A DNA stretch of 64,000 nucleotides from an uncultured Clostridia bacterium (lineage in GTDB: Bacteria > Bacillota > Clostridia > Oscillospirales > Acutalibacteraceae). Below, piece by piece: positions 14,174-45,258 of the stretch. The stretch is from the NCBI GenBank assembly GCA_947166625.1, contig CAMVEX010000002.1:62001-126000 (forward strand). Direction: 5' to 3'. The notes under the pieces were generated by a model. The model was not told the DNA's origin. It did no database searches and saw only the letters and a list, made by a program, of their open reading frames with translations. The position numbers were made by a program, and so were the translations under genes. Position 1 is the first letter of the stretch; every line of letters starts with the position of its first letter.

Positions 14174-14851
14174 TCAAAGCTCGCTGCCCTCGGTCGAAGG
14201 ATAGCCGCAGCTTATCTCAAGATTTCCGTTTTGTTCTCTGAGAGAATCAATGAATTGTTTGAGCGACGCTCCCTGCTTCATTTTTATCCTGTAGGTCAGC
14301 TTGTAAAGCGTGCCCATATTCGAGGTCTTGACATCGGTCATTTCATGAAGATCGGTGAAGGAAGAGAGCACATCTTCAAATACCCCTTCAAATTCGAGAT
14401 TTTCGGGAACGGTTATTTTAAGGATCCTGTATCCTTCCTCTTTTTTATCGAAGAATCTGCTCATGATAAGCAGCAGAACGGATATCACAAGGGCGAAGAT
14501 CGCGGCGATCCCTATATATCCCATACCTGTCGCAAGGCCTACCGCCATAGCAAGGAATATCGCGGTGATCTCCTGCGCCTTGCCTGCCGCGGAGCGGAAT
14601 CTCACAAGGCTGAATGCGCCCGCGACCGCAACGCCCGCGCCTATGTTTCCGTTTACGAGAAGTATCACAAGCTCTACTATCGCGGGGATAAGAGCGAGAG
14701 TCACCGCAAAGCTTTTGCTGGTTTTTATCTGACGGGTGTAAAAGAAGGCTATCACGCCTCCGAGAATAAGTGACACCGCCGTAACAACGAGGAACGACGC
14801 CCCCGTAAAAGTTCCGTTTTCAAGTACGGTTCCGAGTATATTGTCAAGCAT
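14174..14851 (-). CDS. DUF4956 integral membrane protein
   Basis: A 225-residue protein with about four membrane segments in the first 130 residues (FLVVTAVSLILGGVIAFFY, LALIPAIVELVILLV, ITAIFLAMAVGLATGMGYIGIAAIFALVISVLLLI) and the conserved GAFSLVRFRSAAGKAQE. A soluble C-terminal ferredoxin-like part follows. ATG 14851 has AAGGAG 9 nt upstream and overlaps the VTC gene by 8 nt. DUF4956 proteins regularly accompany VTC-domain and CotH proteins; the role is unassigned. Confidence 0.9.
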   Translation of the reverse strand: MLDNILGTVLENGTFTGASFLVVTAVSLILGGVIAFFYTRQIKTSKSFAVTLALIPAIVELVILLVNGNIGAGVAVAGAFSLVRFRSAAGKAQEITAIFLAMAVGLATGMGYIGIAAIFALVISVLLLIMSRFFDKKEEGYRILKITVPENLEFEGVFEDVLSSFTDLHEMTDVKTSNMGTLYKLTYRIKMKQGASLKQFIDSLREQNGNLEISCGYPSTEGSEL

Positions 14852-15605
14852 ATTTGTAAACTCCTTTCTCATTCAAAACAGGTAAAATGATTTTTTCCGT
14901 TCTCTCGACGGAATTTTCTTTTGATTTAAGGTCCGTATATGCGTTACCGTATTTTGAGAAACTCATCGGATAAATACGGTATTCAGAGAGCAGCCTCGCT
15001 ATGTTGAGCGGCACGGCGCCGGCGATTTTAAGCTCCATAAGGTGCATTCCCTCTTTGATTATCGGGCTGCCGCCCGCTCCGTAAGTGAGATCGAGGGCGG
15101 ATGTCCGGTAGCGGATGTTGTCATCGAAGGTGATCCTCAGATCCGGATCGTCATCCCCCGCGAGGGCGATCCTGTCATAGCTGAGCACCACGGCGGGCGC
15201 AAGATTTTTCCATGCCGCCAGAAGGCTGTCTATTTCACCGGAAATCTGTGTTTCCTCATCCGGCCGGCACGCGCCTGCGAGATATCCGAGAGCGCGGTCA
15301 TAGGGCATTGATATTCTCCTCTTGTAAACCACGCCTTTGTATTTTTTCTTTATCTCTACAAATGCGTTTGAATCGGATGAGGGGACTCCGTATGTCCTCA
15401 GGCGAAGCTTTTCTTTATACACCGGTTTTTCAAGAGAAGCCCTTATCATCCTGAAATCCGGAGTATCATAGTATATATTCATTATCTTGCTCCTGCCGTA
15501 TTGATCGATATGCGCGATCCCTTCAAGACTTGAAAAAAATCCGGCAAACTGCTCATCATCAAGCATATACTTTATTTCGGTACGTTCAAAGCAATTCTTA
15601 AACAT
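14844..15605 (-). CDS. VTC-domain (polyphosphate polymerase-like) protein
   Basis: A 253-residue protein of the VTC/CYTH-like tunnel fold. Basic and acidic residues typical of the triphosphate tunnel appear in FERTEIKYML, MNIYYDTPDF, KEKLRLRTYG and FVEIKKKYKGVVYKRR. Yeast Vtc4 makes polyphosphate from ATP; most bacterial members in this gene context are untested. GTG-AGC-GAA precedes ATG 15605, which has AAGGAG at 8 nt. First gene of the VTC-DUF4956-beta-helix set, divergent from the aromatic operon. Confidence 0.88.
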   Translation of the reverse strand: MFKNCFERTEIKYMLDDEQFAGFFSSLEGIAHIDQYGRSKIMNIYYDTPDFRMIRASLEKPVYKEKLRLRTYGVPSSDSNAFVEIKKKYKGVVYKRRISMPYDRALGYLAGACRPDEETQISGEIDSLLAAWKNLAPAVVLSYDRIALAGDDDPDLRITFDDNIRYRTSALDLTYGAGGSPIIKEGMHLMELKIAGAVPLNIARLLSEYRIYPMSFSKYGNAYTDLKSKENSVERTEKIILPVLNEKGVYKYA

Positions 15606-15722
15606 TTCGCTCACTCCTTGTCTGTGCCTGTGAGTGCATAATAAACCGTCTGCCTTAAACGAAACTTAAAGCCGAAAAACTTTTTTGAAAAATCTCAAAA
15701 TTTCGGAATCATGAAAAAATTG

Positions 15723-15751
15723 TTGACATCATCGTAATAAAGTGGTAAATT
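15723..15751 (+). promoter_or_regulatory. Promoter of the aromatic amino acid operon
   Basis: TTGACA at 15723-15728, a 17-bp spacer, and TAAATT at 15746-15751. Transcription would begin near 15758, giving a leader of about 210 nt before pheA that contains the leader peptide and attenuator. Confidence 0.8.
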
Positions 15752-15783
15752 ATCTATCAAGAATTACGAAGGGAGTTCCCGTT

Positions 15784-15876
15784 ATGACAGATAAGCTCAA
15801 TACCCGTATCAACGGGAATTCATATTTTTACGCTTACGTTCGCTTTTTTGCGGGCTTTTATTTCCGTACTCAATAA
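15784..15876 (+). CDS. Phe/Tyr-rich leader peptide of the aromatic operon
   Basis: A 30-codon frame with its own ribosome site (GGGAG at 15771-15775, 8 nt from ATG 15784) and stop TAA 15874-15876. Residues 13-27 read SYFYAYVRFFAGFYF: five Phe and four Tyr in 15 positions, and no Trp. It lies between a consensus promoter and a terminator-like hairpin in front of pheA-aroBCA-tyrA-DAHP synthase. Such a peptide has the form of a ribosome-stalling sensor for charged tRNA-Phe and tRNA-Tyr, like E. coli pheL. It does not resemble any domain and is likely made only for regulation. Confidence 0.85.
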   Translation: MTDKLNTRINGNSYFYAYVRFFAGFYFRTQ

Positions 15877-15941
15877 GTATATTTTCCGACGTAAGCAGAT
15901 AGGATAAGACCAAAGCGGTTCTGTTTCGTACGGAGCCGCTT
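15832..15941 (+). promoter_or_regulatory. Attenuator: alternative RNA pairings downstream of the leader peptide
   Basis: Three pairings are directly visible. GCTTACGT (15832-15839, Ala-Tyr-Val codons of the leader) is complementary to ACGTAAGC (15889-15896). TCCGTAC (15863-15869, last leader codons) is complementary to GTACGGA (15928-15934). The latter overlaps the 3' half of the terminator stem 15913-15921/15933-15941. A ribosome stalled on the Tyr/Phe codons would leave 15863-15869 free to block the terminator; one reaching the stop codon would cover it and let the terminator form. An upstream pairing, TTCCCGTT (15776-15783) with AACGGGAA (15811-15818), surrounds the leader start. Confidence 0.8.
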
Positions 15942-15950
15942 ATTTTAATA
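15913..15950 (+). terminator. Attenuator terminator before pheA
   Basis: Stem AAGCGGTTC (15913-15921) with GAGCCGCTT (15933-15941), 9 pairs including one G-U, 11-nt loop, followed by ATTTTAATA. The U tract is interrupted, fitting a conditional rather than complete terminator. The pheA ribosome site GGAGGA begins 4 nt later. Confidence 0.8.
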
Positions 15951-15967
15951 CCCGGAGGAAGAGAAAA

Positions 15968-17071
15968 ATGGCTGACATCAACAAAGCGAGAGAAGAAATC
16001 GCCAATGCGGACAGAGAGATAGCAAAATATTTTGAGATCAGGATGAACGCCGCGGCAGAGGTAGCGGCTTACAAAAAAGAATACGGGCTGCCGATAGAGA
16101 GCAAGGCTCAGGAGGCGGTCGTGATAGAAAGAAATCTGTCGCATATCAAAAACAGCGAATTAAAAAACTATTATCTTTCGCTCTGCGAGCATCTCATAGA
16201 ACTGAGCAAAAAATATCAGTATCGGCTCAACGAGGGCACAAAAGTAGGATATAACGGTTCTGTCGGCGCTTTTGCTTACATTGCCGCCACAAAAATATTC
16301 CCCGGCGCCTTGCCGACGCCGTTTGATTCATTTGAGAGCGCTTATAACGCGGTCTGCAATGATGAATGCGACCTTGCCGTGCTCCCGATCGAAAACAGCT
16401 ACGCGGGCGAAGTAAGCACGGTGACGGACCTGATGTTTGACGGTCCGCTGAGCGTAAACGGAGTATATTCTCTCCCCATCACTCACAATCTCATAAGCCT
16501 TCCCGGGGCGGAATTATCCGATATAAAAACGGTGATAAGCCACCCTCAGGCTCTCGCTCAATGCCGTAATTTCATCAAAAGCCACGGCTGGAAATGCGTT
16601 GAAGCGGAGAGCACCGCGCAGGCGGTCAAATCCCTGGCGGGAGCGGGCGATATTCACACAGCGGCAATAGGCAGCGAAGAGGCGGCAGAGATAAACGGGC
16701 TCAAAATTCTTTTTGCGGGCATTAACGAAAGCAGAGATAACACTACGAAATTCGCCGTATTTTCAAGATCTTTTATCCCCGAGGCATACGCCGAAAAAGA
16801 CAGCAAATTTATTCTCATGTTTACCGTAAACGATGAAGCGGGCGCTCTCGTAAAAGCGCTGAGCGTAATAGGAAAATACGGATTCAATATGAGCGCTCTG
16901 AGAAGCCGCCCCGTAAAATCAAAGGCCTGGCAATACTATTTCTATACGGAGATTGAGGGCGACGATAATTCGGAGCCGGCGCGGAAAATGATAGACGAGC
17001 TGAGCGCTCAATGCAAAAAAATACGCATCATAGGCCACTACAGCGAAAGCGGTGTTTCAAATGATAATTAA
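15968..17071 (+). CDS. pheA: Bifunctional chorismate mutase / prephenate dehydratase
   Basis: A 367-residue P-protein: AroQ-type chorismate mutase (about 1-88), prephenate dehydratase (about 91-270) and a C-terminal ACT domain (about 280-360). It turns chorismate into phenylpyruvate. Dehydratase motifs include LAVLPIENSYAGEV and NTTKF at 258-262, where most relatives have TRF. In the ACT domain the Phe-binding motifs read GALV (292-295) and RSRP (312-315) rather than ESRP. GGAGGA lies 8 nt before the ATG. First structural gene behind the attenuator; its last codons overlap aroB. Confidence 0.94.
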   Translation: MADINKAREEIANADREIAKYFEIRMNAAAEVAAYKKEYGLPIESKAQEAVVIERNLSHIKNSELKNYYLSLCEHLIELSKKYQYRLNEGTKVGYNGSVGAFAYIAATKIFPGALPTPFDSFESAYNAVCNDECDLAVLPIENSYAGEVSTVTDLMFDGPLSVNGVYSLPITHNLISLPGAELSDIKTVISHPQALAQCRNFIKSHGWKCVEAESTAQAVKSLAGAGDIHTAAIGSEEAAEINGLKILFAGINESRDNTTKFAVFSRSFIPEAYAEKDSKFILMFTVNDEAGALVKALSVIGKYGFNMSALRSRPVKSKAWQYYFYTEIEGDDNSEPARKMIDELSAQCKKIRIIGHYSESGVSNDN

Positions 17072-18065
17072 AGCAAAAGGATATGACATAATCATAGAAA
17101 AAAATTCCCTCGGCAAGGCGGGAGAATACTTTGATCTGAATAGAAAAGCGCTTATTGTTACCGACAGCGGAGTACCCGCAGAGTATTCAAAAGCGGTCTT
17201 GGCCTGCTGCGGGAAAGGCTCGCTGATAAAGACGATACCTCAGGGAGAAAAAAGCAAATGCTTCGATATGCTGGAGGAGCTCCTTGAAGCCATGCTGAAC
17301 GCCGGCTTCACGAGGAAAGATTGCGTTGTCGCCGTAGGCGGAGGCGTTGTGGGAGATCTTTCGGGATTCGCCGCCTCAATGTATATGAGAGGTATCGATT
17401 TTTATAATATCCCGACAACTCTGCTCTCGCAGGTGGATTCTTCCGTCGGCGGAAAGACGGCGATCGACTTCCGCTCGGTAAAAAATATCGTGGGCTCCTT
17501 CTACCCTCCCAAAGGGGTGCTGATAGATGAAACGGTCCTCTCCACCCTGCCCCGCCGCCAGCTTAACAACGGGCTTGCCGAGGCGATCAAAATGGGTATG
17601 ACACATGATGAGAAACTGTTTGAAATATTTGAAAACGGCGATCCTTATGAAAGCCTTGATGAGATAATCGAGAGATCACTCAGAGTCAAAATATCGGTGG
17701 TCAACGCCGATGAAAAAGAAGCCGGGCTCAGACGGGTGCTGAATTTCGGCCACACGATAGGTCACGGCATCGAATCAGAAAAGGACGGAGCGATGTATCA
17801 CGGCGAGTGCGTCGCAATAGGAATGATCCCGATGTGCTCCGAAAGCGCGGCGCAAAGGCTAAAAAAGGCTCTTGAAAAAGTCGCCCTCCCCTCATCCTGC
17901 GACGGTGACAGAGAAAAAATATTTGAAACCGCTCTCCACGATAAAAAGAGCGGCGCAGACGGAATCACGGTCACGCTCTGCGACAGACCAGGCTCTTTCA
18001 GATTTGAAAACATATCGCCCGATACTCTCAGAGAAAAAATCAATCGGGCGGTAAGGGAGAAATAA
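17061..18065 (+). CDS. aroB: 3-dehydroquinate synthase
   Basis: A 334-residue NAD- and metal-dependent enzyme making 3-dehydroquinate from DAHP, the second shikimate step. Motifs are VAVGGGVVGDLSGFAAS (NAD site), PTTLLSQVDSSVGGKTAID and the metal-binding His residues in NFGHTIGHGIE and MYHGECVAIGM. ATG 17061 lies inside the end of pheA, an 11-nt overlap; a GTG nine bases earlier is possible but less likely. Length is typical. Confidence 0.96.
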   Translation: MIIKAKGYDIIIEKNSLGKAGEYFDLNRKALIVTDSGVPAEYSKAVLACCGKGSLIKTIPQGEKSKCFDMLEELLEAMLNAGFTRKDCVVAVGGGVVGDLSGFAASMYMRGIDFYNIPTTLLSQVDSSVGGKTAIDFRSVKNIVGSFYPPKGVLIDETVLSTLPRRQLNNGLAEAIKMGMTHDEKLFEIFENGDPYESLDEIIERSLRVKISVVNADEKEAGLRRVLNFGHTIGHGIESEKDGAMYHGECVAIGMIPMCSESAAQRLKKALEKVALPSSCDGDREKIFETALHDKKSGADGITVTLCDRPGSFRFENISPDTLREKINRAVREK

Positions 18066-18067
18066 TA

Positions 18068-19159
18068 ATGAAAAACACATTCGGAAACAGCGTTTCGCTG
18101 ACAATTTTCGGCGAGAGCCACGGCGAATTTATAGGCGCGGTCATCGACGGTCTCGCGCCCGGGATCACGGTAGATGAAAATTTCATCTCTTCACAGCTCG
18201 CTTTGAGGCGCCCCTACGGAAAAACGGGAACAAAGAGAATCGAAGCGGACGCTTTCAAAACGGTCAGCGGAGTTTTTCAGGGCAAAACCACCGGCACTCC
18301 CGTCTGCATACTCATACCAAATGAAAATACCAGAAGCTCGGATTATTCGCTCAGCGCTTATATCCCGAGACCGGGTCACGCGGATTTTACCGCGAATAAA
18401 AAATATCACGGCTTTGAGGATTACAGAGGCGGAGGGCATTTCAGCGGCCGCATCACAGCCGCTCTCACAGCCGCGGGTGCAATAGCGATATCGGCTCTGC
18501 GCAATAAAGGGATCCTCATAGGCACCCATATAGCGAGATGCGCAAAAATCAACGACAGAAAATTCAAAAATCTTGAAGAGGATATAGCCCTCGTCAACTC
18601 TCTGCGCTTTGCCGCTCTTGATGAAGACAAAGGCAAAAAAATGCAGGATGCGATAAAGCAGGCGGCGAAGGAGGGCGACAGCGTAGGCGGAATCCTCGAA
18701 ACCGCCGTCACCGGTCTGCCGGCAGGGCTCGGCGAGCCGTGGTTTGATTCGGTGGAAAGTCTGCTTTCTCACGCGCTGTTTTCTATCCCTGCCGTCAAAG
18801 GGATACAGTTTTCAAACGCCTTTTCCAAGATCGACCTGCCCGGCAGCAAATACAACGACCCGTTCATTCTGAATTCGGGCAGAGTAGAAACGGCGACCAA
18901 TAATAACGCAGGGATCAACGGCGGGATCACAAACGGTATGCCCATCATCTTTGAATGCGCGGTCAAACCGACTCCTTCGATTTTCAGAGAGCAAAAATCC
19001 GTTGACCTCATGCAGATGAAAGAAACGGAGCTTAAAATCGAGGGCAGGCATGACCCCGCCGTCATTCACAGAGCGAGGGTAGTCGTTGACAGCGTGACCG
19101 CGCTTGTGATCTGCGATCTGCTGGCTCAGCGCTTCGGCACTGATTATCTGGGTGAATAA
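18068..19159 (+). CDS. aroC: Chorismate synthase
   Basis: A 363-residue FMN-dependent lyase producing chorismate from EPSP. The N-terminus FGESHGEFIGAVIDGLAPG carries the first conserved His; HADFTANKKYHGFEDYRGGGHFSGR and NNNAGINGGITNGMPI are signature segments. It starts 3 nt after aroB. All eight enzymes of the operon are close-packed on the same strand. Confidence 0.97.
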   Translation: MKNTFGNSVSLTIFGESHGEFIGAVIDGLAPGITVDENFISSQLALRRPYGKTGTKRIEADAFKTVSGVFQGKTTGTPVCILIPNENTRSSDYSLSAYIPRPGHADFTANKKYHGFEDYRGGGHFSGRITAALTAAGAIAISALRNKGILIGTHIARCAKINDRKFKNLEEDIALVNSLRFAALDEDKGKKMQDAIKQAAKEGDSVGGILETAVTGLPAGLGEPWFDSVESLLSHALFSIPAVKGIQFSNAFSKIDLPGSKYNDPFILNSGRVETATNNNAGINGGITNGMPIIFECAVKPTPSIFREQKSVDLMQMKETELKIEGRHDPAVIHRARVVVDSVTALVICDLLAQRFGTDYLGE

Positions 19160-19160
19160 A

Positions 19161-20369
19161 ATGAGAGCTGAAATATTCCCTTCAAAAGCAAGCGGAGAAA
19201 TTACCGCTCCCCCTTCAAAAAGCGCGGCTCACAGGGCGATAATCTGCGCCTGCCTCGCCGACGGAGAGAGCAAAATCTCCAATATAGAATATTCGCAGGA
19301 TATACTCGCGACGGTTGACTGCATGAGAGCTCTCGGAGCCGAAATCAATGCGAATGACGATTCTTTAACGGTAAAAGGGCCTGTTTCAAAGCGCAAATGC
19401 GCCGTTCTCGGCTGCAGAGAAAGCGGAAGCACGCTCAGGTTTATCATACCGCTCGCCTCACTGATATGCGAAGAATGTTTGTTCGCTCTCTCCGGCAGGC
19501 TTGCCGACAGGCCGCTCGGAGTTTATGAGAAGCTGTTTGCGGAAAACGGGATCTCAATGGAAAGAAATGCCGACGGGCTTAAAATCAGAGGCAGTCTCAA
19601 GCCCGGCATCTTCACTGTTGACGGCGGCGTGAGCAGCCAGTTCATAAGCGGTTTGCTCTTCGCGCTCCCTCTGCTCGGAGGCGGCAGCGAAATAAGGATT
19701 ATTCCTCCGATCGAGAGCAGACCTTATATTGATATGACTTTATCCGCTCTCAAAAGATTCGGCGTCGCAGTTCAATTCAGCGATAAAAACATAATCAGAG
19801 TAAAGGGCGATTCACGATACCGCCCCTGCGATATAAGCATAGAGGGAGACTGGTCCAATGCCGCTTTTTTTGAGGCTTTGAATTTTTCGGGCGGCAGCGT
19901 AAAGATAAACGGGCTTGACCCCGAAAGCGCTCAGGGCGACAGAATATGCACGGAGCTTTTCAGAAAACTCAAAGGGGAAAACAGCGAAATAGATCTCTCC
20001 GACTGCCCCGATCTCGGCCCGGTGATGATGGCATGCGCATATCTGAACGGCGCCGTTTTTACGGGCGTTTCACGGCTTCGCCTCAAAGAGAGCGACAGAT
20101 GCGGGGCAATGGCTCTCGAGCTCTCAAAATTCGGGATAAAAACGCAGCAGACCGAAAACACCTTTACCGTTTACAAAAGCCGGCTTCAAAAACCGGCGCA
20201 GCCCCTTGATTCGCATAACGATCACAGGATCGCGATGGCGATGTCGGTCCTCTGCGCTCAGACGGGCGGCGTGATCGAAGGGGTGCAGGCGGTAGGCAAA
20301 AGCTTCCCCTCATTCTTTGATAAACTCAAATCAACAGGAATAAAGGTAATATTAAATGAAACTTCTTAA
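19161..20369 (+). CDS. aroA: EPSP synthase (3-phosphoshikimate 1-carboxyvinyltransferase)
   Basis: A 402-residue EPSP synthase joining PEP to shikimate-3-phosphate. PPSKSAAHRAII gives the Lys-Ser phosphate site; CRESGSTLRFIIPLA and LKESDRCGAMALELSKFG are the other conserved blocks, with SHNDHRIAMAMSVL near the end. ATG 19161 is chosen over a GTG at 19152 that lies within aroC. The segment 90-LGCRESGSTLRF contains Glu where the usual motif is GNAGT-like, as in class II-type enzymes. The end overlaps tyrA by 14 nt. Confidence 0.95.
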   Translation: MRAEIFPSKASGEITAPPSKSAAHRAIICACLADGESKISNIEYSQDILATVDCMRALGAEINANDDSLTVKGPVSKRKCAVLGCRESGSTLRFIIPLASLICEECLFALSGRLADRPLGVYEKLFAENGISMERNADGLKIRGSLKPGIFTVDGGVSSQFISGLLFALPLLGGGSEIRIIPPIESRPYIDMTLSALKRFGVAVQFSDKNIIRVKGDSRYRPCDISIEGDWSNAAFFEALNFSGGSVKINGLDPESAQGDRICTELFRKLKGENSEIDLSDCPDLGPVMMACAYLNGAVFTGVSRLRLKESDRCGAMALELSKFGIKTQQTENTFTVYKSRLQKPAQPLDSHNDHRIAMAMSVLCAQTGGVIEGVQAVGKSFPSFFDKLKSTGIKVILNETS

Positions 20370-21213
20370 TACGCAAAACATAATGATAGTGGGTCTCGGC
20401 CTTATGGGCGGCAGCTATGCGAAGGCTCTCAAGCGCCTGGATTTTCACATCTGCGCCATTGACACAAACAGCGATTCCATAGATTTCGCGCTTGAAAACG
20501 GAATAATAGACGAGGGCTTCACCTCCCCCGATCCCGACGCTCTCGGCAAAGCCGATATATTGATCTTCGGCCTTTACCCGAATGTTTTCAAACAATGGAT
20601 AGCGGATAATCAGAAATATTTCAAAAGCGGCGCGATCATCACCGATGTCACGGGCGTGAAGCAATGCATAGTGTATGATATTCAGAGCATCCTGCGCGAT
20701 GACGTTGAATTTATCGCCGCTCACCCGATGGCGGGCAGAGAGGTTTACGGAGTGCGCAACAGTACGGAAAAAATGTTCAGAGACGCAAACTTCCTCGTTG
20801 TACCCACCGAAAAAAACACTCCCGGCGCCGTTGAATGGTGCAAGGAACTCGGCAGGCTGCTCGGTTTCATAAATGTGACCGTTCTTTCGCCGGAGGAGCA
20901 CGATAAGATGATAGGCTTCGTCTCGCAGCTTACCCACTGCATCGCGGTAGCGCTCATGACCTGCTCCGACAACACTCACCTCGCCGATTACACTGCCGAT
21001 TCATTCAGAGATCTTACGAGGATAGCGAATATCAACGACAATATGTGGAGCGAACTGTTTTTGCTCAATAAAGAAGCTCTGCTGAGCGATATTGACAGAT
21101 TCATGGCGGAAATGCAGACTCTTCGCGATTTGCTTGAAAGCGATGACCGCGAGGGACTGAGAGCCAAAATGCGCCTTTCCACAGAGAGAAGAGCTGCATT
21201 CAATAAGAAATAA
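20356..21213 (+). CDS. tyrA: Prephenate dehydrogenase
   Basis: A 285-residue NAD(P)-dependent enzyme making 4-hydroxyphenylpyruvate from prephenate, the tyrosine branch. The N-terminal Rossmann motif is VGLGLMGGSYAKAL; the catalytic His lies in FIAAHPMAGREVYG, and LSPEEHDKMIGFVSQLTH follows. There is no fused chorismate mutase or ACT domain, so this branch has no obvious allosteric domain. It overlaps aroA by 14 nt. Confidence 0.94.
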   Translation: MKLLNTQNIMIVGLGLMGGSYAKALKRLDFHICAIDTNSDSIDFALENGIIDEGFTSPDPDALGKADILIFGLYPNVFKQWIADNQKYFKSGAIITDVTGVKQCIVYDIQSILRDDVEFIAAHPMAGREVYGVRNSTEKMFRDANFLVVPTEKNTPGAVEWCKELGRLLGFINVTVLSPEEHDKMIGFVSQLTHCIAVALMTCSDNTHLADYTADSFRDLTRIANINDNMWSELFLLNKEALLSDIDRFMAEMQTLRDLLESDDREGLRAKMRLSTERRAAFNKK

Positions 21214-21240: not shown

Positions 21241-22266
21241 ATGAATATGGATTTTGAAAAAAAGCTTCCGATACCTATGGAAGTAAAAGAGATGTATCCC
21301 GTTTCCGTGCAGGTCCAGCACACATTTGAGGAGAAATGCGCAAAGCTCAAAAGTATTTTTTCGGGCAATGACAACAGATTTCTGCTTATCATAGGCCCCT
21401 GCTCGGCAGACAGGGAAGACAGCGTGATGGACTATATTTCAAGGCTTGTTCCCGTTCAGGAAAAGGTCAAAGATAAAATTATGATAGTCCCGAGAATTTA
21501 CACAAACAAGCCCCGCACCACCGGCTCGGGCTACAAGGGTATGCTTCATCAGCCCGATCCTAACGCAAGGCCTAATCTCTTTGAGGGTATCATCGCCATC
21601 AGAGAGCTTCATATGAGGGCTGTCAGAGAAACGGGCTTCGTCTGCGCCGACGAAATGCTTTACCCCGGCAATTACAAATATCTCGATGATATTCTCGGAT
21701 ATGTCGCCATAGGCGCGAGGAGCGTTGAAAATCAGGAGCACCGCCTTACCGCAAGCGGTATCGATGTGCCCGTGGGTATGAAAAACCCGACCAGCGGAGA
21801 TATAGATGTGATGATTAACGCGATAACCGCCGCTCAGGGCTCTCATCATTTCATTTACCGCGGCTGGCAGGCGAAATCCGCAGGCAACCCGTACGCTCAC
21901 GCGATTCTCAGGGGATATGTGAATAAGCACGGCAATTCTCTGCCCAATTATCATTATGAGGATCTCAAATTCGTAAACGAAAAATATCTCGCCTCCGGGC
22001 TCAACAATCCCGCGGTCATCGTTGACTGCAACCACGCGAATTCCGGCAAGCAGTATATCGAGCAGATAAGGATTGCGAAAGAGATAGCCGGAAGCAGAGC
22101 ATACGATCCCGATATCAAAAAGCTCGTAAAAGGCCTGATGATAGAGAGCTATATCGAGGACGGATGCCAGAAGGGCAGCGGCGAATACGGGAAATCAATA
22201 ACCGACCCCTGCCTCGGCTGGGAAAAGACCGAAAAGCTTATCTGCGAGCTCGCGGATATACTCTGA
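21241..22266 (+). CDS. 3-deoxy-7-phosphoheptulonate (DAHP) synthase, AroF/G type
   Basis: A 341-residue class I-alpha DAHP synthase condensing PEP and erythrose-4-phosphate, the entry to the shikimate pathway. Motifs include LLIIGPCSADRED, PRIYTNKPRTTGSGYKG, GARSVENQEHR, GMKNPTSG and VIVDCNHANSGK, with the metal-binding Cys and His. It resembles the feedback-controlled E. coli AroF/G/H family; which amino acid inhibits it cannot be read. AAGGAG lies 12 nt upstream of the ATG. Symbol not assigned because aroF, aroG and aroH cannot be told apart. Confidence 0.95.
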   Translation: MNMDFEKKLPIPMEVKEMYPVSVQVQHTFEEKCAKLKSIFSGNDNRFLLIIGPCSADREDSVMDYISRLVPVQEKVKDKIMIVPRIYTNKPRTTGSGYKGMLHQPDPNARPNLFEGIIAIRELHMRAVRETGFVCADEMLYPGNYKYLDDILGYVAIGARSVENQEHRLTASGIDVPVGMKNPTSGDIDVMINAITAAQGSHHFIYRGWQAKSAGNPYAHAILRGYVNKHGNSLPNYHYEDLKFVNEKYLASGLNNPAVIVDCNHANSGKQYIEQIRIAKEIAGSRAYDPDIKKLVKGLMIESYIEDGCQKGSGEYGKSITDPCLGWEKTEKLICELADIL

Positions 22267-22280
22267 TAAGAGGTCGGATC

Positions 22281-23504
22281 ATGTACGGTTTACTCGGAAG
22301 GAAACTTTCACATTCGCTCTCTCCGCAGATCCATTCATATTTCGGCAGTTACGGCTATGAACTTTTTTGCCGCGAGAGCGAAGAACTCGATTCATTTTTT
22401 GAGGATGAGTCGATCGACGCATTCAATGTCACGATCCCATATAAAATCGAGGCCTTTGAGAGATGCGATATCCTCAGCGATACCGCGAAAGAGATCGTCA
22501 GCGTAAATACCGTTGTCCGCAAAGGCGGCATGCTTTACGGCTACAACACCGACCTTTTCGGTTTTGAATACATGGTAAAAAGGGCGGGCGCCGAATTCGC
22601 CGGCAAAAAGGTGCTTGTGCTCGGAAGCGGCGGAGCAAGCAAGACCGCGGTCGCCTCTTCAAAGAGGCTCGGAGCGCGCGAGGTGATTGTGATCAGCCGT
22701 AGCGGCGAGAATAATTATGAGAATATTTATGATAACGAAGATGCGCAGATCATAGTAAATACAACGCCCGTGGGGATGTTTCCCGAAAACGGTGTCTCAC
22801 CCGTCAGCCTTAAAAAATTCAAACATATTGAATTTGTCGCGGATTTGATATATAATCCCTGTATGACAGCTCTGCTTATCGAGGCAGGCGAGCTCGGGAT
22901 CCCATATACAAACGGTATGCCGATGCTTGTGGCTCAGGGCTTTTTATCCTCGGAGCTGTTTTTTGATAAAAAATATGATGACGGTATAATCGAAAATGCC
23001 TTGACCGATATTCTTCACAGGATGAAAAATATCGTCCTTATCGGTATGCCCGGCAGCGGCAAGACCACCGCGGGCAAAAAACTCGCGGCTCTTACGGGAA
23101 AAGACTTTACCGATACCGACGAAATCATCGTTGAATCCGAAGGCAGATCCATTCCGGATATTTTTGAGCAAAGCGGCGAGGAATATTTCAGAAACGCCGA
23201 GACCGCCGCTGTATCCGAATGCGGCAAGAGGCTCGGTATCATCATAGCCACCGGCGGCGGCGCAGTTATGCGCAAAAAAAACAGAGACGCTCTCAGGCAA
23301 AACGGGCTCGTGATCTATCTCAGGCGCGGCCTTGACGAGCTTTCGCGGGAGGGCAGACCTCTCAGCTCGGGCGACGGCGCTCTGAGCAGGATTTTTGAAG
23401 AACGCAGAGCCGTATATGAAGGCTTTGCCGATTATATCATTGATGTTGACCGTGATCCCGAGGTCACGGCGGAAAGGTTGTTAAAATGCGTATCCTTGTA
23501 TTAA
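22281..23504 (+). CDS. Shikimate dehydrogenase - shikimate kinase fusion
   Basis: A 407-residue fusion. Residues 1-about 245 are AroE: GLLGRKLSHSLSPQIH, NVTIPYKIEAF (Lys55), NTDLFGF (Asp91) and the NADP loop LVLGSGGASKTAV. Residues about 248-407 are AroK: Walker A GMPGSGKTT at 255-263, DTDEIIVESEG, IIATGGGAV and LRRGLDELSREGRPL. It performs steps four and five of the pathway. ATG 22281 has GAGGT upstream; a longer frame starts inside the DAHP synthase gene and lacks support. It overlaps aroQ by 19 nt. Confidence 0.95.
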   Translation: MYGLLGRKLSHSLSPQIHSYFGSYGYELFCRESEELDSFFEDESIDAFNVTIPYKIEAFERCDILSDTAKEIVSVNTVVRKGGMLYGYNTDLFGFEYMVKRAGAEFAGKKVLVLGSGGASKTAVASSKRLGAREVIVISRSGENNYENIYDNEDAQIIVNTTPVGMFPENGVSPVSLKKFKHIEFVADLIYNPCMTALLIEAGELGIPYTNGMPMLVAQGFLSSELFFDKKYDDGIIENALTDILHRMKNIVLIGMPGSGKTTAGKKLAALTGKDFTDTDEIIVESEGRSIPDIFEQSGEEYFRNAETAAVSECGKRLGIIIATGGGAVMRKKNRDALRQNGLVIYLRRGLDELSREGRPLSSGDGALSRIFEERRAVYEGFADYIIDVDRDPEVTAERLLKCVSLY

Positions 23505-23995
23505 ACGGTCCGAATATGAATCTGCTGGGCATAAGAGAAAAAGACATCTACGGCGAAAGCTCATACCGCGAGCTTTGCAGGATGATCGAGCGCAAGGCTG
23601 ATGAGCTCAATGTTTATGTTGATATGTATCAGTCAAATCACGAGGGCGATCTTGTTGACAAAATTCAGGAAACCTACAAAGGCACCGACGGAATCATCAT
23701 CAACCCCGCCGCCTATACCCATACCAGCATCGCAATTCTCGACGCTCTTAAAACGGTTAAAAAGCCGACGGTAGAGGTGCATATCACCGATATCAGCGAG
23801 CGCGAGGATTTCCGCAAGCTCTCTTATGTGAGCATGTATGCGGAAAAGACCATCATGGGCAAGGGATTTGACGGCTATATCGAAGCTCTTGAATATCTTG
23901 TTGAAAAGCTCAGCGCTCAGGAGGCGGAGGAAGCCAAAAAGCGTGAAGAAGAGAGAGAAAAGGAAAGAGCCGCCAGAGAGGGCGAGCAGGCCTGA
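23486..23995 (+). CDS. aroQ: Type II 3-dehydroquinate dehydratase
   Basis: A 169-residue type II dehydroquinase. LNGPNMNLLGIREKDIYG (Arg and Tyr of the active-site lid), IINPAAYTHTS, and VEVHITDISEREDF are the family motifs. The C-terminal 25 residues are a Lys/Glu/Arg helix absent from typical members. The ATG lies inside aroK. It is the last gene of the aromatic operon, which therefore encodes every step from PEP and erythrose-4-phosphate to phenylpyruvate and hydroxyphenylpyruvate. Confidence 0.95.
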   Translation: MRILVLNGPNMNLLGIREKDIYGESSYRELCRMIERKADELNVYVDMYQSNHEGDLVDKIQETYKGTDGIIINPAAYTHTSIAILDALKTVKKPTVEVHITDISEREDFRKLSYVSMYAEKTIMGKGFDGYIEALEYLVEKLSAQEAEEAKKREEEREKERAAREGEQA

Positions 23996-45136: not shown

Positions 45137-45144
45137 CGAAAACA

Positions 45145-45238
45145 CCTTATCTTTCGGCAGAATGCCGCAGGAATTAGCACCTTGATAACCAGGTTGCCGG
45201 GCTTCACAGGGCCTGTCCCTCCGCCGCTCTTTATAAGG
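45145..45238 (-). ncRNA. SAM-I (S-box) riboswitch
   Basis: Read on the minus strand, the closing helix CTTAT/ATAAG, AGAGCGGCGGAGGGACAGGC, GTGAAGCCCGGCAACC and AAGGTGCTAATTCC match the S-box core in order and spacing. It lies between a consensus promoter and the metK start, with a terminator downstream. SAM binding is expected to stop transcription early. Confidence 0.96.
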
Positions 45239-45258
45239 AATATTTACTTAACGTGACA

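Follow-up and report, generated by a model that had tools for sequence, protein, structure and literature searches.

A phenylalanine- and tyrosine-rich leader peptide and a predicted transcription attenuator before an eight-gene aromatic operon of an uncultured Clostridia bacterium

We define "the window" as the whole stretch of DNA analysed here, 64,000 nucleotides from an assembly of 2.49 Mb that is 97.5% complete. On its forward strand lies an eight-gene operon, pheA aroB aroC aroA tyrA aroF aroEK aroQ, whose content covers all seven shikimate steps and the two branches to phenylalanine and tyrosine. The genes encode chorismate mutase-prephenate dehydratase (pheA, 15968..17071), 3-dehydroquinate synthase (aroB, 17052..18065), chorismate synthase (aroC, 18068..19159), EPSP synthase (aroA, 19152..20369), prephenate dehydrogenase (tyrA, 20356..21213), a DAHP synthase of the AroFGH type (aroF, 21241..22266), an aroE-aroK fusion in a single frame (22281..23504) and type II dehydroquinase (aroQ, 23486..23995). 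No AroFGH-type DAHP synthase other than this aroF was found in the genome. Judged by its gene content, the operon makes both of the amino acids that its leader is proposed to sense. The nearest named relatives of pheA come from rumen and gut metagenome assemblies labelled Ruminococcaceae, Clostridiaceae, Oscillospiraceae or Clostridia. Divergent genes on the reverse strand (14174-15614) encode a VTC domain and DUF4956, and the first of them starts 109 nt upstream of the promoter described below. The only gathering-level Rfam match in the window is a SAM riboswitch at 45144-45239 on the reverse strand (81.6 bits).

The DNA upstream of pheA carries, all on the forward strand, a promoter (15723..15751; TTGACA at 15723-15728, a 17-nt spacer and TAAATT at 15746-15751), a Shine-Dalgarno sequence, AAGGGAG (15769..15775), and a short frame that appears translatable, running from ATG at 15784 to TAA at 15874-15876 (15784..15876, 30 codons plus TAA). 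The predicted peptide, MTDKLNTRINGNSYFYAYVRFFAGFYFRTQ, has 30 residues, among them 5 Phe, 4 Tyr and no Trp. A preliminary description of this DNA had placed the promoter, the ribosome site and the aromatic frame at these positions, and all three are there. Akin frames were found in L059-L063, L065, L066, L002, L098, L121 and L125, which together with the window form a group that we call class A, with L072, L073, L097, L101 and L032 as looser members. Its members have a common core such as YAYVRFFAGFYF and terminators of the type GCGGTTCTG..., ACGGTTCTG... or GGCGGCTTCG.... In all 12 leaders compared by eye the promoter reads TTGACA or TTGACT, 17 nt and a TANANT-like element (TATCAT in L065), and AAGGAG occupies the same place in the 11 leaders other than the window's. 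Inside the frame is a small hairpin, GTTCGC-TTTTTT-GCGGGC (15838..15855, forward strand), whose GCGGGC is almost letter-invariant in class A, with synonymous codons nearly fixed; the switch model set out below leaves this hairpin unexplained.

The run of codons for the products of the operon is richer than chance would provide. When the 320 nt upstream of pheA were shuffled 2000 times with dinucleotides preserved, no shuffle reached nine Phe or Tyr codons in 15, and a chance open reading frame was rejected on that count. The leader RNA also folds more stably than expected (z = -3.41; 0 of 200 shuffles equally stable). Among 61 distinct regions upstream of pheA orthologues (at least 45% identity), several of which have another coding frame ending directly upstream of pheA, 22 contain at least 7 Phe or Tyr codons in 15, compared with 16 of 1220 shuffles; the same mark is reached in none of 17 regions upstream of a more distant type of pheA. 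The 39 regions below the mark of 7 include L066, L068 and L003, which have shorter or less rich frames and were accepted as leaders.

Leader-peptide attenuation of the trpL and pheL kind, with its scheme of alternative 1:2, 2:3 and 3:4 pairings, has long been known, and the strands that such a scheme would use can be assigned here. Strand 1, GCTTACGT (15832..15839), spans codons Ala17-Tyr18 and part of Val19 and pairs with 15889-15896. Strand 2, ACGTAAGCAGA (15889..15899), can pair with strand 1 or with strand 3, TCTGTTTCGT (15920..15929), which is the end of the terminator 5' arm plus its loop and serves as the antiterminator partner of strand 2. The same 11 nt are thus shared between two helices (8 bp with strand 1; 10 bp with strand 3, one bulge). 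All three strands lie on the forward strand of the DNA, as does the intrinsic terminator at 15913..15950, which stands before the first gene of the operon and has a T-rich tail, ATTTTAATAC. The arms that had been proposed for it, 15913-15921 and 15933-15941, do pair when G-U pairs are allowed; the stem has 12 pairs (15913-15924/15930-15941) and not nine.

A further helix, hairpin 0, appears in the computed fold near the start of the frame. Its 5' arm (15773..15783, forward strand) covers part of the ribosome site, and its 3' arm (15811..15821, forward strand) consists of early codons of the frame. In 8 of 12 leaders only 0-4 of 300 shuffles gave as good a hairpin; it is weak by the same comparison in L066 (158), L002 (75), L098 (179) and L125 (34). 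Over nine leaders, own arms paired better than swapped arms (p = 0.0025), and the hairpin is kept in L063 and L065 with both arms changed in letters. Hairpin 0 probably limits the reloading of ribosomes.

The alternative pairings were examined by a swap test, in which each leader's own strands were compared with the strands of other leaders, the search segments being chosen without regard to their own partners. With 10 leaders the joint p was 0.00024 (2:3 alone, 0.0003; 1:2 alone, 0.017), and with seven leaders, one per cluster, it was 0.006. Of the 11 leaders tested for a 14-nt segment able to pair with both arms, 7 have one that 0-4 of 200 shuffles equal; the segment was no better than shuffles in L066 (98), L002 (60), L072 (44) and L073 (70), although the 2:3 helix of L002, considered separately, is strong (4 of 300 shuffles reach it). 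In individual leaders, 15 in all, between 0 and 46 of 300 shuffles equalled the best 2:3 duplex, with 25 doing so in the window. Both pairings are made with other letters in L098 and, by eye, in L125 (strand 2 CGTCCGAGCAG), and also in L097, L101 and L032. In an alignment of 10 leaders, 95.8% of the cells of the terminator were paired and two of its pairs were changed on both sides; the corresponding values were 87.0% and zero for 2:3, and 83.8% and zero for 1:2. Column covariation says little about 1:2 and 2:3, since the position of strand 2 differs in L066 and L002. As far as comparison of sequences can tell, the support for these two helices comes from the replacement of whole strands.

Leaders with unrelated letters make similar helices. 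Class B (L013, L018, L024, L094; peptide pattern FF.FS.AFYFGYAYF) has 2:3 helices that 0, 0, 0 and 37 of 200 shuffles equalled, respectively, and 1:2 helices that 0, 8, 1 and 1 of 300 equalled. In class C (L003, L006, L007, L068, L070, L040; pattern MF...YYFYF) the 2:3 helices are mostly weak (L003 80, L068 75, L070 125 and L006 34 of 200 shuffles as good), with a clear one in L040 (5 of 200). The swap tests and class B indicate that mutually exclusive 1:2 and 2:3 pairings are under selection. Alignment with relatives had been proposed as a check on the preliminary description, and it bears out the kind of mechanism described: the frame, the terminator and the alternative pairings are kept while the letters change.

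Folding computations used two models of the ribosome, one of which considers only the RNA downstream of it, whereas the other gives it a footprint and keeps the RNA upstream as well. The bare helices have energies of -18.0 (terminator), -13.0 (1:2) and -8.7 (2:3) kcal/mol. When no ribosome is present, 1:2 dominates in RNA ending at 15931 (P 0.96) and in RNA ending at 15935 (0.85, versus 0.11 for 2:3). In the downstream-only model, 2:3 has a P of 0.88-0.95 in RNA ending at 15931 at the 13 computed positions with the A site at codon 14 or later, and it still forms in RNA ending at 15935 with the ribosome at codons 1-12 (0.82-0.93); a ribosome at the stop codon gives 0.95 at 15931 and 0.80 at 15935. 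Since 2:3 forms with the ribosome at codons 1-12 or at the stop codon, termination would require that the ribosome be free or have left, or that 1:2 fold round it. The footprint model yields 1:2 at 0.88 with the ribosome at the stop codon; there 1:2 is lost only when the A site holds one of codons 14-24, 2:3 never exceeds 0.26, and F25, Y26 and F27 come too late to free strand 2. The two models disagree on the level of 2:3, and as modelled the direction of the switch is supported by folding while its strength is not. For the complete RNA, the terminator is the favoured structure at equilibrium wherever the ribosome was placed (P 0.76-0.98), which implies that the antiterminator must win kinetically.

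Taken together, the conserved frame, the terminator and the exclusive pairings that survive sequence change are what a ribosome-mediated attenuator of the classical 1:2/2:3/3:4 kind should possess, and the leader is very probably one, in agreement with the mechanism first proposed for it. RNA polymerase would start near 15758 and a ribosome would load at 15769-15775. Were charged tRNA-Phe or tRNA-Tyr in short supply, the ribosome would slow with codons 14-24 (Y14, F15, Y16, Y18, F21 and F22) in its A site, cover strand 1 (15832-15839) and leave strand 2 (15889-15899) free; strand 2 would pair with strand 3 (15920-15929) ahead of the synthesis of the terminator 3' arm, and the polymerase would continue into pheA-aroQ. 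When supply is good the ribosome would finish the peptide and leave, strand 1 would pair with strand 2, and strand 3 would be left for strand 4, so that transcription stops near 15945. An RNA that carries no ribosome would form 1:2, making termination the default. The direction of control, like the ends of the RNA and the kinetic preference, is what we infer from this arrangement.

To trace the leader among relatives we built a covariance model of class A (R1). The 45 genomes of the genus contain 11 strong copies (94.8 bits or more), one per genome, of which 10 lie directly before a matched pheA; the eleventh (in G285, where pheA is split between contigs) precedes a frame that begins like pheA. 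In 398 genomes of the family, strong copies occur in G000, G262 and G087 only, and all other matches score 38.5 bits or less. Matches below 40 bits mostly resemble any terminator: aromatic frames were sought at 10 such loci and seen at two, namely L153, which is the leader of a DAHP synthase gene, and L152, whose frame is far from the match. The weak matches in G286 and G255 precede pheA and correspond to the leaders L097 and L101. When class A and the other sequence classes are combined, leaders before pheA or DAHP-synthase genes were found in 26 genera of the family. One member of the same genus, G015 (L113), has a pheA with no leader. In that genome (L113, 308-555 and 3289-3325) pheA lies behind a gene that by eye is methyltransferase-like, with only a terminator between them, and a T-box on the same contig precedes a gene resembling a TrpB paralogue.

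L153 carries the leader MTARTQNVNFYSFFTPYFSWGFFCYKKLIK before a DAHP synthase gene, and in it an ATTGAGC strand forms a helix with the terminator arm that 3 of 500 shuffles equal. This finding led us to examine the regions upstream of related DAHP synthase genes. The sample (n = 48) consisted of the best 30 loci and 20 chosen from the lower-scoring part, minus L197 and L207, which have short upstream DNA; it includes L173, which is L153's own gene. At least 7 Phe, Tyr or Trp codons in 15 were present in 23 of the 48 regions (9 of 29 and 14 of 19 in the two parts), compared with 30 of 1440 shuffles and none of 48 antisense readings. The triple Ile, Leu and Val reaches the same mark in 19 of the 48. 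Being rich in three given residues is thus unremarkable in itself, and it is the shuffle and antisense controls, run for Phe, Tyr and Trp only, that carry the claim. Antiterminator helices in this class vary in strength, the number of 200 shuffles that equalled them being 0 in L173, 8 in L177, 9 in L178, 13 in L176 and in L189, 27 in L194, 34 in L184, 46 in L174, 111 in L181, 137 in L195 and 148 in L186; L200 and L202 received no terminator score. A further class of DAHP-synthase leaders, with YFYFYF runs, comprises L214, L216, L217, L218, L219 and L220 (genera g63, g98, g18, g1, g23 and g7). G029 has two DAHP synthase genes (L173, L222) whose aromatic leaders differ: NFYSFFTPYFSWGFF contains Trp and AEYRYFSFTGYYF does not.

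The presence of Trp in these leaders tends to follow the capacity to make it. A search of the window's genome for trpE and IGPS detected neither, which fits a leader that has no Trp codons. Over 48 genomes with a recognised leader, Trp is encoded in the leader in 10 of 16 with IGPS and in 7 of 32 without (Fisher p = 0.007), or, by distinct genus states, in 9 of 15 versus 3 of 16 (p = 0.023); the genomes are incomplete and related, and the association is suggestive only. One leader per genome entered this test (G029 has two), and L181, L186, L189, L195 and L003 were included although they are below the mark of 7. Four of the peptides (G286, G247, G157, G170) were shortened at one end, which leaves the presence of Trp unaffected. 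Five of the seven Trp-coding leaders without IGPS come from the window's own genus.

Other readings of the leader differ in the strand that acts as antiterminator or in the signal that is sensed. The preliminary description assigned the antiterminator to 15863..15869 (forward strand) paired with 15928-15934, and as the main antiterminator this pair is very unlikely. The complement exists as an exact 7 bp in the window, is perfect by eye in L060 and L061 as well (one mismatch in L059 and L062), and in the 10-leader alignment has 77.1% of its cells paired and three pairs changed on both sides, more than 1:2 or 2:3. Against it, its register is lost in L063 (-2.2) and in L065 (which pairs out of register, -9.7), own strands barely exceed swapped ones (p = 0.047, versus 0.0003 for 2:3), its P is 0.02 or less in RNA ending at 15935, and it uses the 3' arm of the terminator, the last part to appear. 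We prefer 2:3 because of the swap test, the position of the arm and the folding; the column counts do not favour it. Thus 15889-15899 with 15920-15929, opposed by 15832-15839, probably fits the antiterminator role better, and the 15863-15869 strand would be secondary at most: five of its seven pairs nest outside the 2:3 helix and could extend it. The signal might instead be a free metabolite sensed by the peptide core YVRFFAGF through nascent-chain arrest of the TnaC type. The core varies remarkably little across class A, and several DAHP-synthase operon leaders also contain [VAP]-R-[FY]. Yet the core Val, Ala and Gly are nearly always GTT, GCG and GGC and its Arg nearly always CGC, codons with genome fractions of 0.25, 0.37, 0.57 and 0.21, respectively; such near-fixed codons indicate a constraint on the RNA (the small hairpin). 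Moreover, the core is absent from classes B and C and from the YFYFYF leaders, which have only Phe/Tyr richness in common, and we judge peptide-mediated arrest to be highly improbable. T-boxes, through which amino acid operons of the Firmicutes are usually controlled, are common in the genus (all 45 genomes have a match, and G000 has 10). A T-box, a riboswitch or protein-mediated antitermination is nonetheless scarcely credible here: the leader has no gathering-level Rfam match, and a scan with E up to 10 returned five matches, to unrelated families only, with E of 2.9 or worse. Scans of 19 relatives' loci gave only a T-box in L113 far from pheA, 5S rRNA and tRNAs. T-boxes, riboswitches and the known Rfam leader families were rejected for the leader since no covariance model matched.

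Within the ribosome-mediated attenuator, which remains our preferred reading, the amino acids sensed are a separate matter. Phe shortage alone might be effective, the Tyr codons being passengers or a mere delay. Phe is commoner than Tyr over the 48 leaders (233 F, 177 Y), and the Phe-Tyr-Phe leader AroR, which precedes aroF in C. glutamicum and at which stalling raises transcription, is reported to answer to Phe and to show no effect of Tyr supply (PMC11802643). On the other side, three of the six aromatic codons in the window's switching range are Tyr, and Y14, Y16 and Y18 are those nearest strand 1; tyrA is within the operon; and all 48 leaders, which were picked for F/Y or F/Y/W richness, have both residues. 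A response to Phe alone seems to us the less probable course, unlikely if far from negligible, and on balance we lean towards both Phe and Tyr being sensed by the one leader.

The kind of switch proposed is already known, and similar ones exist in other bacteria. The closest in logic is the aroR-aroF attenuator of C. glutamicum, reportedly described by Neshat et al. in 2014, where a leader with Phe and Tyr precedes an operon with a DAHP synthase; compared by description, it differs in belonging to the Actinobacteria and in having only three aromatic residues named. In E. coli pheL-pheA (as also in pheST and trpL), a leader with regulatory codons likewise stands before pheA under charged-tRNA control (PMC11802643); the leader here shows no sequence relation to pheL in Rfam scans, has Tyr as well as Phe, and stands alone before the entire set of shikimate, Phe and Tyr genes. 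The uORFC-13-1 motif of Acholeplasma aroF is described as an upstream frame that has one or more Phe codons, together with a terminator, ahead of a DAHP synthase; compared by that description it differs in having 24 representatives, from Acholeplasma and environmental sequences only, and no Tyr named (PMC8632094). In the Firmicutes, published work reports leader-peptide attenuation for hisS-like genes (hisS*/hisZ) of Bacilli (PMC2965389), predicts it for hisZ of Clostridium difficile and Bacillus (PMC4833913) and describes it for ilv of S. aureus (PMC5794164) and for rli60-ilv of Listeria (PMC5864092), the same kind of mechanism for other amino acids and operons. The tyrosine biosynthesis T-box of the B. 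cereus group is likewise charged-tRNA control by RNA of an aromatic operon in Firmicutes, and differs in that the RNA itself binds tRNA and there is no leader peptide (PMC2494555). The suggestion that such a leader is new to the lineage therefore stands only in part, given the Bacilli systems and the C. difficile prediction. Among the matches listed from the openly licensed literature, no title or start of an abstract names a Phe/Tyr leader attenuator in Clostridia or, for this lineage, a Tyr-rich leader ahead of an entire aromatic operon; this is no proof of absence.

For the family as a whole we regard as evenly balanced the proposition that aromatic operons headed by pheA or a DAHP synthase gene are ruled by quickly evolving leader-peptide attenuators and not by T-boxes. 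Under this proposition the letters of every strand would be replaced from genus to genus, with the 1:2/2:3/3:4 logic retained, a hairpin of the leader's own would close the ribosome site, and the residues of the leader would follow synthetic capacity (Phe and Tyr always, Trp mostly with the Trp pathway). Tyr-rich leaders have, to our knowledge, rarely been described, and the window's leader for that reason allows dual Phe/Tyr sensing to be tested directly. The numerous unrelated leaders, whose composition tends to track Trp prototrophy, constitute a natural experiment on the origin and retuning of attenuators. The genus is rich in T-boxes, yet its aromatic operons appear to be governed by ribosome stalling.
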